In this document: piece after piece, positions 22,744-64,000 of the stretch | Position numbering within the stretch: the first letter of the stretch is position 1 | Layout: the number at the start of each line of letters is the position of its first letter | Assembly: GCA_030646695.1 (NCBI GenBank) | Contig: JAUSLF010000078.1 | Span: 1 to 64,000 of the forward strand | Source: Nitrosomonadaceae bacterium | Lineage (GTDB): Bacteria > Pseudomonadota > Gammaproteobacteria > Burkholderiales > Nitrosomonadaceae | DNA length: 64,000 nucleotides | Direction of reading: 5' to 3' | The notes under the pieces: generated by a model | What the model saw: the letters and a program-made list of their open reading frames with translations, nothing else | Database searches by the model: none | Told to the model about the DNA's origin: nothing | Program-made: the position numbers and the translations under genes

Positions 22744-23568
22744 ATGAAAATAGCCATCTTCTCTCTTGCCTTGGCCCTCCTCACGCTTGGTCTGACAACA
22801 AGCGGGTATAGCCATGCCGCCGCACCTGGATGGAACGCGCTCAGCCGGCAGGCCGATTTGCTGTATCGACAAGGACAATATACGCGCGCGACGGAAGTGG
22901 CGAAACAAGCCCTGCAGGTAGCCGAACAATCTCTTGGCCCGGATCACCCTGATGTGGCCACCAGTCTGAATAGTCTGGCATTGCTGTACAGCGCCCAAGG
23001 GCAGTATGCACAGGCTGAGCCGTTGTACCAACGGGCGTTGGCGATTGATGAAAAGGTCCAGGGTCCGGATCATCCCGATGTCGCCGCGAGTCTGAATAAC
23101 CTGGCGCAACTGTATCATGCTCAGGAACAGTATGCGCTGGCCGAGCCGCTGCACAAACGGGCGTTGGCGATTCTGGAAAAAGTCTTCGGCCCGGATCATC
23201 CCAATGTGGCCATAAGTCTGAATAATCTGGCGCTGCTGTACCACGCGCAGAAACAGTATGCGCAGGCTGAACTGCTGTATAAACGCGTCCTGGCGATTTC
23301 ACAGAAAGCGCTTGGTCCGGAGCATCCGAATGTGGCGCTCGGTCTGAATAATCTGGCAGGATTGTACAGAGATCAGGGGAAATACCCCAATGCCGAACCG
23401 CTGTTCAGACGTGCACTGGCGATTTCAGAAAAGGCATTCGGTCCGGATCATCCCAATGTAGCTACCGGCCTTGAAAATCTGGCGCAACTGTATCGAGACA
23501 TTGGTTATGCCAGCAAAGCAGTGCCGCTGGAGAAGCGCGCAGCAGAGATACGAGCACTGCGGCGATAA
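22744..23568 (+). CDS. exported tetratricopeptide-repeat protein
   Basis: A 274-residue protein with a signal peptide (cleavage near SHA) followed by kinesin-light-chain-type TPR units of 42 residues. The unit marker GP(D/E)HP(D/N)VA occurs five times, from about residue 61 onward. Repeats are nearly identical at the DNA level over about 126 bases, so unit number may vary between strains through recombination. Such TPR proteins bind partner proteins; no partner is evident nearby. It is a lone plus-strand gene wedged between the minus-strand genes bpt and pyrD. Confidence 0.88.
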   Translation: MKIAIFSLALALLTLGLTTSGYSHAAAPGWNALSRQADLLYRQGQYTRATEVAKQALQVAEQSLGPDHPDVATSLNSLALLYSAQGQYAQAEPLYQRALAIDEKVQGPDHPDVAASLNNLAQLYHAQEQYALAEPLHKRALAILEKVFGPDHPNVAISLNNLALLYHAQKQYAQAELLYKRVLAISQKALGPEHPNVALGLNNLAGLYRDQGKYPNAEPLFRRALAISEKAFGPDHPNVATGLENLAQLYRDIGYASKAVPLEKRAAEIRALRR

Positions 23569-54709: not shown

Positions 54710-56618
<1,909 letters not shown>

Positions 56619-56622
<4 letters not shown>

Positions 56623-56897
56623 TGCTTGAGACTCGACGGATAGCCTGCGTTCTTCGTGGCTTCGATCAGTGCAGCGGCAGTGGTCTTAGTGTCATCAAAG
56701 GTGACGACGGCTTCTCTCTGCTTGAAGCTGACGTCGGTCTTGCTGACCCCTTCGACCTTGTTCAGTACTTTCTTGACAGTAATCGGGCAGGCTGCGCATG
56801 TCATGCCTGGCACCGACAGGGTGACGGTTTTCGTGGTAGCGAAGGCGGACGCGCTGAAGGCTGCGGCGAGGGTGACGATAAGGGCGAGTTTTTTCAT
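56619..56897 (-). CDS. merP: MerP, periplasmic mercury-binding protein
   Basis: A 92-residue HMA-domain protein. The signal peptide ends AFA; the mature part has GMTCAAC, the Hg-binding Cys pair, and the ferredoxin-like fold pattern VEGVSKTDVSFKQREAVVTF. The ATG at 56897, preceded by GGAGAATTCCC, is preferred over the upstream open frame. It hands Hg(II) to MerT or MerF. Confidence 0.95.
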
Positions 56898-56910
56898 GGG
56901 AATTCTCCAG

Positions 56911-57261
56911 TTAGTAGAACAGGGACACGATGTAAGGAAAGGCAAGTGCAACGATTACGAGTGACGCTACGACCCAAAAGATGATTTTATACGTCGTCTT
57001 GACCTGAGGTAACACGCAAATTTCACCCGGCTTGCATTTGGCATCTGACCGATAGATACGTTGCCAAGCGAAGAATAGTGCAACCAGCGCCGCGCCGATG
57101 AAGATCGGCCGATAGGGTTCCAGCACCGTCAGGTTGCCGATCCAGGCGCCGCTGAAACCAAGCGCGATCAGTATGAGCGGACCGAGGCAACAGGCCGAGG
57201 CCAGGATGGCTGCCACGCCGCCAGTGAAGAGCGCGCCGCGACCAGTTTTCGTTTCAGACAT
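56911..57261 (-). CDS. merT: MerT, mercuric ion transporter
   Basis: A 116-residue inner-membrane protein with three helices. Cys24-Cys25 (ASACCLGP) lies in helix 1 and a second Cys pair (CKPGEIC) in the cytoplasmic loop, the two known relay points for Hg(II). First gene of the operon, with GGAG 8 bases before the ATG, and driven by the mer promoter at 57297-57327. Confidence 0.96.
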   Translation of the reverse strand: MSETKTGRGALFTGGVAAILASACCLGPLILIALGFSGAWIGNLTVLEPYRPIFIGAALVALFFAWQRIYRSDAKCKPGEICVLPQVKTTYKIIFWVVASLVIVALAFPYIVSLFY

Positions 57262-57296
57262 GGGCTTCTCCTTTCAAGAATCCAGCCAATGGCGTA

Positions 57297-57327
57297 ACAT
57301 TACTTCCGTAGTCAAGTACGGAGTCAA
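57297..57327 (-). promoter_or_regulatory. merT promoter with MerR operator
   Basis: Read on the minus strand, a -35 TTGACT (57327-57322) and a -10 TAATGT (57302-57297) are 19 bases apart, the stretched spacing that MerR twists into an active form. The spacer holds the dyad CCGTAC-TTGAC-TACGG. This is a canonical mer operator-promoter. Confidence 0.93.
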
Positions 57328-57332
57328 GCGGT

Positions 57333-57740
57333 ATGGAAAAAAATCTAGAGAATTTGACGATTGGTACCTTTGCCAAGATGGCCGGAGTCAATGTCGAGAC
57401 TATCCGGTTCTATCAGCGCAAGGGCCTGTTGCCCGAACCGGATCGGCTTTATGGCAGCATCCGGCGCTACGGTAAGGCAGACGTCGCCCGCGTGAGATTT
57501 GTGAAGTCCGCGCAACGGATGGGATTGAGCCTGGACGAAGTGGGGCAGCTTCTGAAACTGGAAGACGGCACGAATTGCAATGAAGCAGCAGAAATTGCTG
57601 CGCGCCGGCTAGCCGATGTTCGTGCCCGTTTGGCTGATCTGCTGAGAGTCGAGGCGGCGTTATCGAAGCTGATTTGCCAGTGCCAGGCGCATCATGGCAA
57701 TGTTTCCTGTCCCCTGATTGCCGCATTGCAGAGCGGCTAA
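57333..57740 (+). CDS. merR: MerR, mercury-responsive regulator
   Basis: A 135-residue MerR. The winged-helix part has the typical [12 protein letters not shown] region. The three Hg-binding cysteines of Tn501 MerR (82, 117, 126) fall at exactly the same numbers here, in TNCNEA, CQCQAH and VSCPLI. It represses merTPFA in the absence of Hg and activates it when Hg is bound. Divergent from merT with the operator between. Confidence 0.96.
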
Positions 57741-57864: not shown

Positions 57865-58641
57865 TTAGACCCCCAGGAAATGGGTCAGCGGATAGTGGAA
57901 GGTGTCATCATGGCATTTGAGCGCACCCAGTATGGCCGTGCCGGAAAACACCCTGGCGTCGTATTGGCAGAGGCTGACGACTGGAAACCGGTGCCCCAAG
58001 CCATTATTGTAGCGGGTCTCAAAGTCATTCAACTCCTCAATCGACACGTTTTTATGCAGAATCCAAGCCATGTCGCCGAGCACCCGTAAGCCATGAATAC
58101 CATGCTTGCCGGCATCGAGAAAAGCTTTCTCAAAAAAGGCGTATATCTCCGCGCTGCTCGGCATTCCATCCATAACAATCAGGCGGCCTTCTTTCATATC
58201 CTCATCGATACCGGGCCTGACATCGCGTAACTCTCCCAGGATATGGGCCTGCACCTCGGTAGCCGCCACCATGAAGCAACGGTCGCCAACCTGTAAGCCG
58301 CTGAGCAAAAATGGTAACGCTAGCTTTAACCTGCCTTGGTCGGTTTCATAAAAAGCGCATAAGTGATTTCCGTAGTCGATCGAGATTCCCTCCAGCGTGA
58401 TATGAGAAACCTGGCCGGTCACATGCCCAGCTTTAACGCTGCTTCCCGGTGCTGGGCTCTGTTCCAGATAGGCAAATAAATCAGCAAGACGGAAGCGGCG
58501 TTCACGTCTGACACCAATGCGCAAGCAAGGTAGCTTGCCAGAATCGCTCCAGCGCCTTAGCGATATCTCGCTCGTATTCAGAATCTTGGCTGCCTGTTTA
58601 ATATTCAGGAGCTCTTCAGCAACGTGTGCGGCCGTGCTCAT
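57865..58641 (-). CDS. MEDS-domain regulator with MerR-type helix-turn-helix (DcmR-like)
   Basis: A 258-residue regulator. The N-terminal 60 residues form an excisionase/MerR-like helix-turn-helix (LNIKQAAKILNTSEISLRRW). Residues about 90-255 form a MEDS domain (GNHLCAFYET, then the DMKEGRLIVMDG region), the sensing module found in DcmR, the repressor of dichloromethane dehalogenase in methylotrophs. It lies opposite a haloalkane-dehalogenase-like gene, with 175 bases between the start codons, and probably controls it. A halogenated or one-carbon signal is a reasonable guess, not shown. Confidence 0.85.
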   Translation of the reverse strand: MSTAAHVAEELLNIKQAAKILNTSEISLRRWSDSGKLPCLRIGVRRERRFRLADLFAYLEQSPAPGSSVKAGHVTGQVSHITLEGISIDYGNHLCAFYETDQGRLKLALPFLLSGLQVGDRCFMVAATEVQAHILGELRDVRPGIDEDMKEGRLIVMDGMPSSAEIYAFFEKAFLDAGKHGIHGLRVLGDMAWILHKNVSIEELNDFETRYNNGLGHRFPVVSLCQYDARVFSGTAILGALKCHDDTFHYPLTHFLGV

Positions 58642-58730
58642 GTACTGTTCCTTGTCAACAATTACCCATTTGATACATCCGGGTGGTCCAGTACCTCTAA
58701 ATACATAATCAGATTACTTTCATAAATCTC

Positions 58731-58805
58731 TTGACATCAATTGTAGCATGGTATCAAATCATTCGTAATGATGAGTAATGATTATTAATGATTATTAATG
58801 AATAA
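58731..58805 (+). promoter_or_regulatory. dehalogenase promoter with four phased 10-bp repeats
   Basis: A TTGACA (58731-58736) and a weak TATCAA/TCAAAT -10 near 58752-58759 are followed by four head-to-tail 10-base units: TAATGATGAG (58766), TAATGATTAT (58776), TAATGATTAT (58786), TAATGAATAA (58796). One unit per helical turn places them on one DNA face, directly before the ribosome binding site AGAGGGA. Likely operator for the divergent MEDS regulator. Confidence 0.6.
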
Positions 58806-58816
58806 GAGGGATCAAG

Positions 58817-60091
58817 ATGAGTAAGGTATCAGGCATTTCAGACGTTTTGAGTGATTGCAGCTTTTATAGTGCTCTCAGCCATTCGCCCGTACGGGCTGCA
58901 GGGAATACACCCAACCTGTCGATTTATCGGCCGCGGGGTGAACACCTATACGGAAGCTTCCGTTACAAGGCGCCGACTGAAGGTCTGCTGCAGGTAGGTG
59001 GAGCGCATAGCACGGAAGCCGAATGGTCTGATGATTTCGAGATTGCCTGGACCAAGATGGGCAACAAGGGGCCGCTAGTGCTCTTTCTGCATGGCGTTCC
59101 GACCAATCGTTCGCAGTGGGAGGAAGTGCAAGGGCAGGTGTCACGTTTCTGTGAGACCATCTCTATCGATATGCTTGGTATGGGCGAGAGCTCCAAGCCG
59201 CGCCTTTATGGCCGCAGACAAAATTCTGCTCCCAATGACATGTGGCATTGGATCCACGATACGGATTACATCGAGAAACTGATGCAGCAGGAATACCCCG
59301 GCCGCAAATTCATTTTTATTGCCGACGACTGGGGAAGCGGTATCGCTTCGCAATATGCCGCCAAGTATAACGAGCGCTTAAATGCCTTTGTGCAGATGGA
59401 TCCGATTGCCTTCGATGGTTACCCCGTCAATGAGATACAGGCCATCGGCCGGGCAGCGGAGATACCGAATACGCCGGAAGGCGATGCCCAGTATGCGATG
59501 CTGTTTGCGGCCTTCGACCAGACGCTGGTGCAGATTCTGAAGACGATGGTGTACGACCCTTCCAAATACAATCAATACAATCTGCGTTATCTTACCTTTC
59601 CCTACGTCGACGTGGACTACGAGCGAAATGGCTGCGGCGACGGTATCACGGGCGTCGCCAAGTCAACAACCATGCGGTTGAAGCTACATAACATGCGTGT
59701 GCTGTCGGATCGGGCGGCAACTCTCAGTCCCGCCCTGCTGCTGCCTCATCACCCGCAACGTAATCCAAATGGCGTGCGCTACCAAGACATAACCGTCCCG
59801 ATGCTGATCATGTGGGGTGAGTACGACAACATGATGCCGGCAGCACAAACGCAACGGTTTGCCAACGTGTTGGGGACAGATGACGTCCAGATCACTTACA
59901 TTCCAAGGTCAGGGCATTTTCCGGCTACAGATAATCCGGATGGTGTGGCGGATACCATCATTAATTTCATCCGCCGCGTGATGGGGCGTAGTGCGCTTGC
60001 CGATATCTATGCCGGTAACCAGGGCATCTGGAAAGGTGATGAACAACAGATGGTGCAAGAGTTGCGAATCCTGCATCGAATTGCGGACTAA
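58817..60091 (+). CDS. haloalkane-dehalogenase-like alpha/beta hydrolase
   Basis: A 424-residue alpha/beta hydrolase. HGVP (92-95) forms the oxyanion region; the nucleophile is Asp171 in ADDWGS, followed by Trp172, the halide-binding position of haloalkane dehalogenases; the acid is probably Asp337 (GEYDNMMP) and the base His367 (RSGHFP). About 70 residues precede the core, so the chain is longer than the usual 300. The Asp-Trp pair supports a dehalogenase or an epoxide hydrolase rather than an esterase. No signal peptide. The promoter region has phased repeats opposite a DcmR-like gene. Confidence 0.82.
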   Translation: MSKVSGISDVLSDCSFYSALSHSPVRAAGNTPNLSIYRPRGEHLYGSFRYKAPTEGLLQVGGAHSTEAEWSDDFEIAWTKMGNKGPLVLFLHGVPTNRSQWEEVQGQVSRFCETISIDMLGMGESSKPRLYGRRQNSAPNDMWHWIHDTDYIEKLMQQEYPGRKFIFIADDWGSGIASQYAAKYNERLNAFVQMDPIAFDGYPVNEIQAIGRAAEIPNTPEGDAQYAMLFAAFDQTLVQILKTMVYDPSKYNQYNLRYLTFPYVDVDYERNGCGDGITGVAKSTTMRLKLHNMRVLSDRAATLSPALLLPHHPQRNPNGVRYQDITVPMLIMWGEYDNMMPAAQTQRFANVLGTDDVQITYIPRSGHFPATDNPDGVADTIINFIRRVMGRSALADIYAGNQGIWKGDEQQMVQELRILHRIAD

Positions 60092-60185: not shown

Positions 60186-60788
60186 ATGACGGTTAAGAAT
60201 AACGGCTCGCACTCACTAACCTGGCTGGAGGATCATGGCGACTATCTGTTTCGCTATGCCTTGCTGAAGGTGAAAGACACTCATCTGGCCGAGGATATGG
60301 TTCAGGAAACCCTGCTGGCTGCCATTGCCTCGTGGAGCAGCTTCACCAACCAGTCATCGGTCAGGACTTGGCTCACGGCCATACTCAAATACAAGTTGCT
60401 CGATCATTACCGGCGGCAAGGCCGTGAGGTGGCGATTAGCGATCTAGTTGATCAGGATGAAGATGAAAGTCTGGATAATTTTTTTGCGGCTAGTGGTCGT
60501 TGGATCGACAGGCCGGATGCTTTTCCCAGCCCGGAATCGGCATTCCAGCGGAAAGAATTCTGGAAAGTCTTTGAAGAATGTCTATCCAGACTGAAGCCGC
60601 GGCAGGCTGAGGTGTTTCTCGCCAAAGAGGTTTATGGCATGAGTAATGAGGAGATTTGTAAGGATTTTGCGTTGAGCCCGACCAACACATGGGTGCTGAT
60701 GCATCGCGCCCGGCTGTCTCTGTGTAAATGTCTGAAAATTCACTGGCCGGATTTGGACGGATTGATTGAGGAAACAGGTACATGTTGA
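60186..60788 (+). CDS. ECF-like sigma-70 family RNA polymerase sigma factor
   Basis: A 200-residue sigma factor with region 2 (LFRYALLKVKDTHLAEDMVQ, -10 recognition) and region 4 (LKPRQAEVFLAKEVYGMSNEEICKD, then a helix ending RARLSLCKCL for -35 binding). The linker of about 60 residues is longer than in most ECF factors, resembling the TIGR02943-type group. A TATAAT lies at 60136-60141 upstream. It overlaps its anti-sigma gene by seven bases. Confidence 0.9.
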   Translation: MTVKNNGSHSLTWLEDHGDYLFRYALLKVKDTHLAEDMVQETLLAAIASWSSFTNQSSVRTWLTAILKYKLLDHYRRQGREVAISDLVDQDEDESLDNFFAASGRWIDRPDAFPSPESAFQRKEFWKVFEECLSRLKPRQAEVFLAKEVYGMSNEEICKDFALSPTNTWVLMHRARLSLCKCLKIHWPDLDGLIEETGTC

Positions 60789-61027
60789 ATTGCAAACAAG
60801 CAAGTGAATTGGCTTCACAGGCAATGGATGAAAAGCTGCCATTCCGGGAAAGAATGGCGCTTAAATTGCACCTGCTCTTTTGCCGCAGCTGCGCTAATTT
60901 TACCCGGCAACTCGCTTTTTTACGTGAGGCCTCATACCGTTTTCGCACTCATCATGATCTCCATCTATCGGATGAAGCAAGGCAGCGAATCGTCAACACC
61001 CTGAAGGACAAACAAGATTGCGGCTGA
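60782..61027 (+). CDS. zinc-containing anti-sigma factor (ZAS/zf-HC2 type)
   Basis: An 81-residue protein with the zinc motif HLLFCRSC (H-x3-C-x2-C) at about 30-37 and a first Cys in LNCKQASE, the pattern of the zf-HC2 anti-sigma family. No membrane helix, so it is a soluble, probably redox-sensitive, inhibitor of the sigma factor just upstream. Translational overlap of seven bases supports equimolar production. Confidence 0.88.
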   Translation: MLNCKQASELASQAMDEKLPFRERMALKLHLLFCRSCANFTRQLAFLREASYRFRTHHDLHLSDEARQRIVNTLKDKQDCG

Positions 61028-61088
61028 CCCCGTTAACTACTTTATCAGTTTTACATCAACCTTCAACAGGAACAGAAAGGAAATCAAA

Positions 61089-61670
61089 ATGTCCGGATAC
61101 TCCACACTGAGCCTTCCCCAGCAACACGTCGAGAGCGGCTCACCCAAGGTCAAAGAGGTACTGGAAACAGCCCTGAAGCAGACGGGTTTCATCCCCAACA
61201 TGTACAGCTATATGGCCAACGCCCCGGGGCTGCTGAATACCTATCTCTTCGGCTATAACCAGTTTCGTAATGAAACTGGCTTCAGCCCAATTGAGCAGGA
61301 AGTTGTACTCTTGACCATCAGCCGCGAAAATGGCTGCCATTATTGCGTCGCCGCGCATAGCGTGGTTGCTGCTAAATTTTCCAAGGTACCGGAGGAAGTG
61401 ACCGGCGCCATCCGGAACAGTGCAGCAATTCCCGATGCCAAACTGAATGCGCTGAGCGAATTCACCAAGACTTTGTTGAATACGCGCGGCCACCCGGAAA
61501 AAAGCGATCTTGAGACCTTCCTTGCAGCAGGCTATGCAGAACAGAATGTGCTAGATATTCTGCTGGCAATCAGTGTCAAGATCATCAGCAATTATGCCAA
61601 CCACCTTTTCGATACGCCGCTTGATGACATGTTTAAATCGCGGGAATGGCATACCGGGCAAGTGTTGTAA
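61089..61670 (+). CDS. AhpD-like peroxidase-related protein
   Basis: A 193-residue protein of the CMD/AhpD fold with CHYCVAAHS, the redox CxxC plus His. Members often have hydroperoxide-reducing activity. It follows the sigma/anti-sigma pair by 61 bases with its own GGAA ribosome binding site. This order (sigma, ZAS, AhpD-like) suggests a peroxide-response unit in which the enzyme is a target of the sigma factor. Confidence 0.88.
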   Translation: MSGYSTLSLPQQHVESGSPKVKEVLETALKQTGFIPNMYSYMANAPGLLNTYLFGYNQFRNETGFSPIEQEVVLLTISRENGCHYCVAAHSVVAAKFSKVPEEVTGAIRNSAAIPDAKLNALSEFTKTLLNTRGHPEKSDLETFLAAGYAEQNVLDILLAISVKIISNYANHLFDTPLDDMFKSREWHTGQVL

Positions 61671-63503: not shown

Positions 63504-64000
63504 TTAGTGCCGCTTTGCTGCGCAGGTCCCCCCAGCACTGCAAGGATTCCTGGCAGCACAAGGATTCTTAGCGGCACAGGGGTTATGTGCTCCAGCAACT
63601 GGCTTGAACGACTTCTGCAGTTTAGCCGTATAAGCCGTCAACGCAGCAAGTTGCCGTGAATCCCAAGCGAGCGGCGTGGCCTGCATCGGTTTGACCATGC
63701 AGAGCTGTACCATTTCCTCCAGCGTAATCGATTTCATACTGGCACTGTCCGCCGCCATTTGAACAAAGTGCGGATAAGGCTTGGCAAAGCTGGGTTGAAG
63801 CATGGCAGTGCCATCCTGATGGCATGTTGCACAGGAAAGGCTGCCGCCACTGCTCAGCTTTGGGTCGTTCCACAAGGCCCTGCCTTCATCCTGCAATGCC
63901 TGGTGATTTCCCTTATACGGTTTTGTTCCCTTGGGCCGGGTCACCTGCTTAGGATCAATCCGGCCACTGGCAGCGCAGGGATTCATGGCCGCACAAGGAT
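63504..64000 (-). CDS. cytochrome c with NPCAA repeats, running off the right edge
   Basis: The frame runs to the edge of the window on the minus strand. It opens with PCAAM-NPCAASGR, so the ATG at 63986 is internal and the true start lies beyond 64000. One heme site CATCH is in SLSCATCHQDGTAM; the axial Met is probably in ITLEEMVQLCMVKPM. The C-terminus has Cys-rich units NPCAAKNPCAARNPCSAGG with a final GTCAAKRH. These flanking NPCxA units on both sides of a cytochrome domain are unusual and may bind metal. Periplasmic by inference. Confidence 0.75.
   Translation of the reverse strand, partial: PCAAMNPCAASGRIDPKQVTRPKGTKPYKGNHQALQDEGRALWNDPKLSSGGSLSCATCHQDGTAMLQPSFAKPYPHFVQMAADSASMKSITLEEMVQLCMVKPMQATPLAWDSRQLAALTAYTAKLQKSFKPVAGAHNPCAAKNPCAARNPCSAGGTCAAKRH

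Follow-up and report, generated by a model that had tools for sequence, protein, structure and literature searches.

A conserved, helically phased 10-bp repeat array is a candidate operator of the divergent MEDS regulator at a Nitrosomonadaceae hydrolase promoter

Head-to-tail assembly on DNA has been described for BldC, which binds direct repeats and at smeA-ssfA occupies four sites with a spacing of one helical turn (PMC5859096), and for RdfS, which forms head-to-tail filaments (PMC11963761). CarH couples a MerR-like winged helix-turn-helix (wHTH) domain to a sensor and represses transcription from three or four tandem 11-bp repeats laid over promoter elements (PMC9304148). Among regulators with a MEDS domain, DcmR of Methylorubrum extorquens DM4 is encoded divergently from the dehalogenase gene under its control, according to La Roche and Leisinger (1991) as summarized in PMC9320726, and the dcmA and dcmR promoters share the motif GATC(C/G)ATAGCCT (PMC9320726). 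Our literature search found no paper describing tandem operators for MEDS proteins.

The window analyzed here comprises 64,000 nucleotides from a Nitrosomonadaceae bacterium (contig JAUSLF010000078.1), in which a MEDS regulator gene and a hydrolase gene diverge from an intergenic region of 175 bp. The features of the locus, in window coordinates, are as follows:

57865-58641, minus strand: MEDS regulator gene, 258 aa, with N-terminal HTH_17 and C-terminal MEDS domains (Pfam)
57910-58365, minus strand: MEDS sensor domain, residues 93-244, with a predicted KaiC/RecA-like fold
58459-58611, minus strand: wHTH domain, residues 11-61, whose nearest solved DNA-binding relatives are BldC and Xis
58731-58736, plus strand: -35 box TTGACA of the hydrolase promoter, kept in Nitrosomonas orthologues
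58741-58749, plus strand: core of the -35/-10 spacer, here TTGTAGCAT and in most orthologues TTATAGCAT, strongly conserved
58754-58759, plus strand: weak -10-like box TCAAAT, predicted from the sequence with its position compared with orthologues; 17-bp spacer
58766-58775, plus strand: array unit 1, TAATGATGAG
58776-58785, plus strand: array unit 2, TAATGATTAT
58786-58795, plus strand: array unit 3, TAATGATTAT
58796-58805, plus strand: array unit 4, TAATGAATAA, a partial match only
58805-58810, plus strand: ribosome binding site (RBS)-like AGAGGG, from the sequence, ahead of the hydrolase start ATG at 58817
58817-60091, plus strand: alpha/beta hydrolase, 424 aa, haloalkane-dehalogenase-related by domain and profile matches and by alignment
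60186-60788, plus strand: ECF sigma factor (TIGR02943), a conserved neighbour of the hydrolase
60782-61027, plus strand: zinc-finger anti-sigma factor, a conserved neighbour

The regulator shares its wHTH class with BldC, and the array, like BldC operators with their variable repeat number, consists of degenerate AT-rich direct repeats about one turn apart (PMC5859096). BldC, however, is a 68-residue wHTH protein without a sensor that acts pleiotropically in development, and its repeat, of the AATTNNNNC type, measures 9 bp, whereas the system described here has a fused MEDS domain, a 10-bp unit WTGATNATYW and a dedicated locus. Xis and RdfS have in common with it the HTH_17 domain and are known for head-to-tail filaments (PMC11963761), but they are recombination directionality factors that carry no sensor domain. 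CarH and CarA come close in being one-component proteins, with a wHTH and a sensor, that use tandem direct repeats one turn apart in a plastic operator design (PMC9304148); they differ in that CarH senses B12 and light via a cobalamin domain and reads repeats of the form nnnnTnnACAn, while in our case MEDS is the sensor, the repeat is another one and the -10 box precedes the array. DcmR is likewise a divergently encoded MEDS-type regulator, in its case beside a dehalogenase gene, but its published motif is non-tandem and forms no 10-bp array (PMC9320726). What is new here would be a CarH/BldC-like mode that differs from its models in sensor, repeat and array position.

The initial annotation had described four phased 10-bp repeats that follow the promoter and precede the RBS. 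This description is confirmed by the sequence (positions 58766-58805), by Tandem Repeats Finder (period 10, 4.5 copies, score 55) and by conservation in orthologues. Among 3000 dinucleotide shuffles of the intergenic region a single one attained the same score, and of 20 whole-window shuffles two contained one such array each. Taken in a single genome the array is thus unusual, not overwhelming; it is the conservation across orthologues that marks it as a non-chance feature. Within the window's genome assembly the array pattern occurs in one place only. A genome-wide scan with three mismatches allowed returned mostly noise and revealed no regulon.

About 15 Nitrosomonas genomes contain hydrolase orthologues with 79-85% identity, in nearly every case with a divergent MEDS gene, and this divergent arrangement is conserved across loci. 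We assessed 16 non-redundant orthologous leaders from Nitrosomonas, most of which display the promoter pattern TTGAC[AT] ... TATAGCAT ... TCANAT. Their autocorrelation at lag 10 is 0.475 as against 0.326+-0.016 in shuffles (z = 9.5), with further peaks at lag 20 (z = 6.4) and lag 30 (z = 3.3), and the exact 10-bp period is kept despite differing letters. A periodic position weight matrix (PWM) of four contiguous units scores 510 bits versus 107+-9 in shuffled sets and gives the unit consensus WTGATNATYW; in leave-one-out runs each of the 16 leaders exceeded 500 of 500 shuffles. Pairs of [TA]GA[TA] are spaced by 10 (35 times), 20 (26 times) or 30 (14 times) nucleotides, every other spacing occurring at most 11 times. 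In 14 of the 16 leaders the array has its first base 32-37 nt downstream of where the -35 box begins, close to the expected +1, and the distance from array to start codon varies widely among orthologues. The array holds a fixed position, corresponding to about +1 to +40 with the transcription start as predicted from the promoter alone. Free variation of the repeats among close strains, which the initial annotation had named as an outcome that would refute its reading, is not what we find: over 60 close ortholog pairs we counted 0, 9 and 19 changes at unit positions 3, 7 and 4, while positions 6 and 9 had 141 and 137, so that changes avoid positions 3, 4 and 7. A single G in each unit is conserved at 98% and is unchanged throughout the 60 pairs.

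The array also follows the MEDS gene. All loci in which MEDS lies beside an intact hydrolase promoter carry it, with four-unit scores of 21.7-40.5 bits. Of four hydrolase genes that lack MEDS, one is from Nitrosomonas (L036/G104) and three are from other groups (L048-L050), and none of them scores above 2.1 bits; L036 retains a marginal three-unit score (p 0.008), perhaps an array remnant. The exception is L034/G036, which has a good array, yet no MEDS gene was found in its 99%-complete genome; if the array is a MEDS operator, this case requires recent loss of MEDS or an assembly gap. In another Nitrosomonas locus (L068) a transposase-like insertion has replaced the hydrolase side, and the MEDS gene is kept while the array is absent. 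The array therefore belongs to the target promoter, and its reading as an element of the MEDS promoter was set aside. Weak arrays of 22-23 bits occur at L031 and in the N. marina pair L047/L076. These two sister loci have the lowest scores of all, and each has one broken partner: in L047 (2011-2782, N. marina Nm22) the MEDS gene is frameshifted and the hydrolase intact, and in L076 the hydrolase is truncated. As both belong to one lineage, the coincidence is only suggestive.

Three distant MEDS homologues from three other families (44-53% identity) likewise have phased units of the array motif upstream, each with a four-unit p of 0.0005 against shuffles, which is the floor of the test, under a PWM derived from Nitrosomonas. 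In one of them (L086) the MEDS gene is divergent from an operon encoding a FadL/TodX porin, a B12-binding/corrinoid protein, a URO-D methyltransferase, a DUF1638 protein and RACo, with no hydrolase; the first GATAAT unit follows about 35 nt after a TTGACA box, and the units form two pairs in mirror arrangement. The presence of these units without a hydrolase uncouples the motif from the hydrolase and ties it to MEDS. The other two (L091 and L093) have few phased units, the best on the opposite strand, and the array geometry outside Nitrosomonas, as read from these three loci, is evidently not fixed. The repeats that the initial annotation had suggested looking for ahead of MEDS-regulated genes elsewhere are thus present in three of three distant homologues, and the hydrolases without MEDS are negative. 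No further MEDS homologues were found among the relatives of G253, G755 and G630 within their own families or in a phylum-wide protein sample, and the locus of a more remote MEDS protein on the Xanthobacter Py2 plasmid (26.7% identity) has no array. A further view of the methyltransferase arrangement is given by L155 (4739-11830, G253), where a MEDS regulator with 50-51% identity to that of the window is divergent from a porin/corrinoid protein/URO-D methyltransferase/DUF1638/RACo operon, likely a C1/methyl-transfer pathway. At L091 (~2558-2719) and L093 (2416-2652) a small ORF, 51% similar between the loci, lies between MEDS and hydrolase; it has no Pfam match and looks like an NrtS-type membrane protein.

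The regulator itself combines two clearly recognizable domains, HTH_17 (1.2e-10, residues 11-61) and MEDS PF14417 (1.6e-29, 103 bits versus a cut-off of 29.8), and no other domain, including a cobalamin-binding one, was found in it. When the wHTH profile was run against solved structures with hmmsearch, BldC (6ama, 7.7e-6; 6amk, 1.1e-4) and Xis (4j2n, 1.3e-3) were matched, preceded by 8jbs, which is deposited as a putative cobalamin-binding protein. DNA-bound BldC complexes also rank first for the predicted wHTH fold, with Z about 8, a value that establishes the wHTH class but not the exact subfamily, the fold being common to MerR proteins. Among the MEDS proteins compared, the recognition-helix region SEISLRRWSDSG shows strong conservation. 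The model of the MEDS domain (pLDDT 75) has KaiC/RecA-like matches (Foldseek E about 1e-4, TM 0.4-0.5). Among the strongly scoring MEDS proteins inspected from a phylum-wide PF14417 sample, no N-terminal HTH_17 was seen; the array is thus documented for four lineages.

The hydrolase promoter is a consensus call read from conservation, with a good -35 box and a weak -10 box, and because of this weak -10 an automatic sigma-70 scan reported no site there. The conserved spacer core at 58741-58749 is a possible second regulatory site. MerR-type proteins often bind in the spacer between -35 and -10. In a non-systematic comparison the DcmR-associated motif was not seen as such, and only ATAGC/GTAGC is common to it and the TTATAGCAT spacer core. 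A perfect 9-nt inverted repeat, GTATCAAAT, lies near both divergent promoters (58668-58676/58751-58759); it was set aside as an operator because reading the orthologous intergenics did not reveal it there.

For the target gene, the initial annotation's term "dehalogenase-like" proved accurate as a statement of likeness, in that the hydrolase matches LinB-type enzymes (E 1.4e-13), its invariant ADDWGSG/ADDWG aligns with the DWGS motif, and a nucleophile Asp followed by Trp (DW) is present. LinB and DhlA have a halide-stabilising Asn or Glu after the HG motif. In all 11 of 11 hydrolase sequences this place is taken by Val (HGVP) instead of the HGN or HGE expected, and the best NCBIfam-type model, PRK03592, gives 73 bits against a cut-off of 241. 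Because the halide-stabilising residue is absent and the score lies far under the curated cut-off, we keep "dehalogenase" as a resemblance only, unproven as an activity. DcmA belongs to an enzyme family other than the alpha/beta hydrolase of the window. Genes for the ECF sigma factor, the zinc-finger anti-sigma factor and an AhpD-like protein come after the hydrolase (60186-61670), and the sigma/anti-sigma pair is found behind the hydrolase in nearly all Nitrosomonas loci.

The wider setting of the locus offers several observations of its own. Among nine genomes of its genus, only that of the window (G000, versus G001-G008) has the hydrolase and MEDS genes, while the hydrolase is present in about 15 genomes of the neighbouring genus, a distribution that may reflect transfer or a binning error. 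A contig labelled Cyclobacteriaceae (L040) carries the Nitrosomonas MEDS/hydrolase locus and is apparently misbinned. Adjoining the MEDS gene is an apparent mercury-resistance cluster (54710-57740), with MerR recognized by Pfam and MerT/MerP/MerA-like genes by sequence appearance only. Elsewhere in the window, a cytochrome-like gene (63504-63986) has a Cys-rich repeated tail (NPCAAK/NPCAAR/NPCSAG) and an 18-bp tandem DNA repeat (63541-63578), and tandem 126-bp (42-aa) repeats, probably tetratricopeptide-like, occupy 22932-23492.

Could the array be the operator of a different direct-repeat binder, an OmpR/PhoB-type response regulator or a Fur-like protein? Some response regulators do bind direct repeats (PMC5859096), and the AT-rich units superficially resemble GATAAT-type Fur sites. 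We nevertheless regard this as unlikely, since the array follows MEDS across families and targets, one of them without a hydrolase, and is missing in four of the five cases in which the locus has no MEDS gene. In G031, moreover, the genome-wide scan gave its sole matches with 0-1 mismatches at the MEDS/hydrolase locus, which argues for a dedicated local regulator. Fur-type sites in particular were rejected, as a 6-bp period is absent (z = 1.1 at lag 6 and -2.6 at lag 12) and no leader contains a good 7-1-7 Fur box, the best having 3-5 mismatches.

Lying between promoter and RBS, the units would be transcribed, a position that would also suit 5' leader repeats acting as RNA, either bound by an RNA-binding protein or tuning translation. 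One leader (L043) indeed folds better than its own shuffles, but over four leaders the folds are inconsistent (z -1.1, +1.1, -0.7, -3.7) and Rfam gave no match, on which grounds the RNA element was rejected; the exact 10.0-base period fits the DNA turn, and it is the distance to the -35 box that is constant and the distance to the start codon that is widely variable, all of which makes a role as RNA quite improbable. AT-rich sequence at the helical period just downstream of a promoter might also be intrinsically curved or easily melted DNA that aids the promoter with no dedicated protein. This we hold to be highly improbable, for the unit has no phased A-tracts, the conserved and unchanged G looks like base-specific recognition, and hydrolase promoters without MEDS mostly lack the array. 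Chance or slippage without function is scarcely credible: short tandem repeats do arise by slippage, and equal scores did turn up in the whole-window shuffles, but the explanation is largely refuted by conservation, as period, motif and position are kept in orthologous leaders of different sequence and the motif recurs in other families.

The existence and conservation of the array, the constancy of its position, the way it accompanies the MEDS gene and the class to which the DNA-binding domain belongs all point to an operator of the divergent MEDS regulator, which would bind it as about four BldC/Xis-like wHTH domains side by side, most likely in ligand-relieved repression; we consider this reading likely, and we infer from these observations the binding itself, the stoichiometry, the repression and the ligand. 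The initial annotation had suggested side-by-side binding, most simply by the divergent MEDS protein, and it gains support from the way the array tracks MEDS and from the BldC/Xis-class wHTH, which together make such binding probable. By analogy with BldC, RdfS and CarH, each 10-bp WTGATNATYW unit would be contacted by one winged helix, and about four subunits would line up head-to-tail on one face of the DNA from roughly +1 to +40. An assembly over this region would most simply block RNA polymerase, making repression of the hydrolase the most likely outcome, and repression may extend to the downstream ECF sigma and anti-sigma genes. The MEDS domain, with its predicted KaiC/RecA-like fold, would be the ligand switch: a small carbon compound bound there would weaken the assembly and relieve repression. 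A more general proposal, which we put forward as tentative and rather doubtful, is that HTH-MEDS proteins form a third architecture beside BldC and CarH, a ligand-gated head-to-tail assembly with wHTHs on 10-bp repeats and KaiC/RecA-like MEDS domains stacked alongside, in which the same WTGATNATYW code would serve unrelated targets, a hydrolase in nitrifiers and a corrinoid methyltransferase operon elsewhere.

If this more general proposal is true, the repeats would provide the first operator code for the MEDS sensor family. In the literature found, the published sites of MEDS regulators so far amount to one motif common to dcmA and dcmR; a conserved phased array with a clear consensus is a directly testable candidate operator. 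The array points to a CarH/BldC-like mode of action in a presumed sensor of simple hydrocarbon derivatives. Such an operator would be of use in working out which signal Nitrosomonas perceives at the hydrolase locus, and biosensors for small halogenated or C1 compounds could be developed from it.
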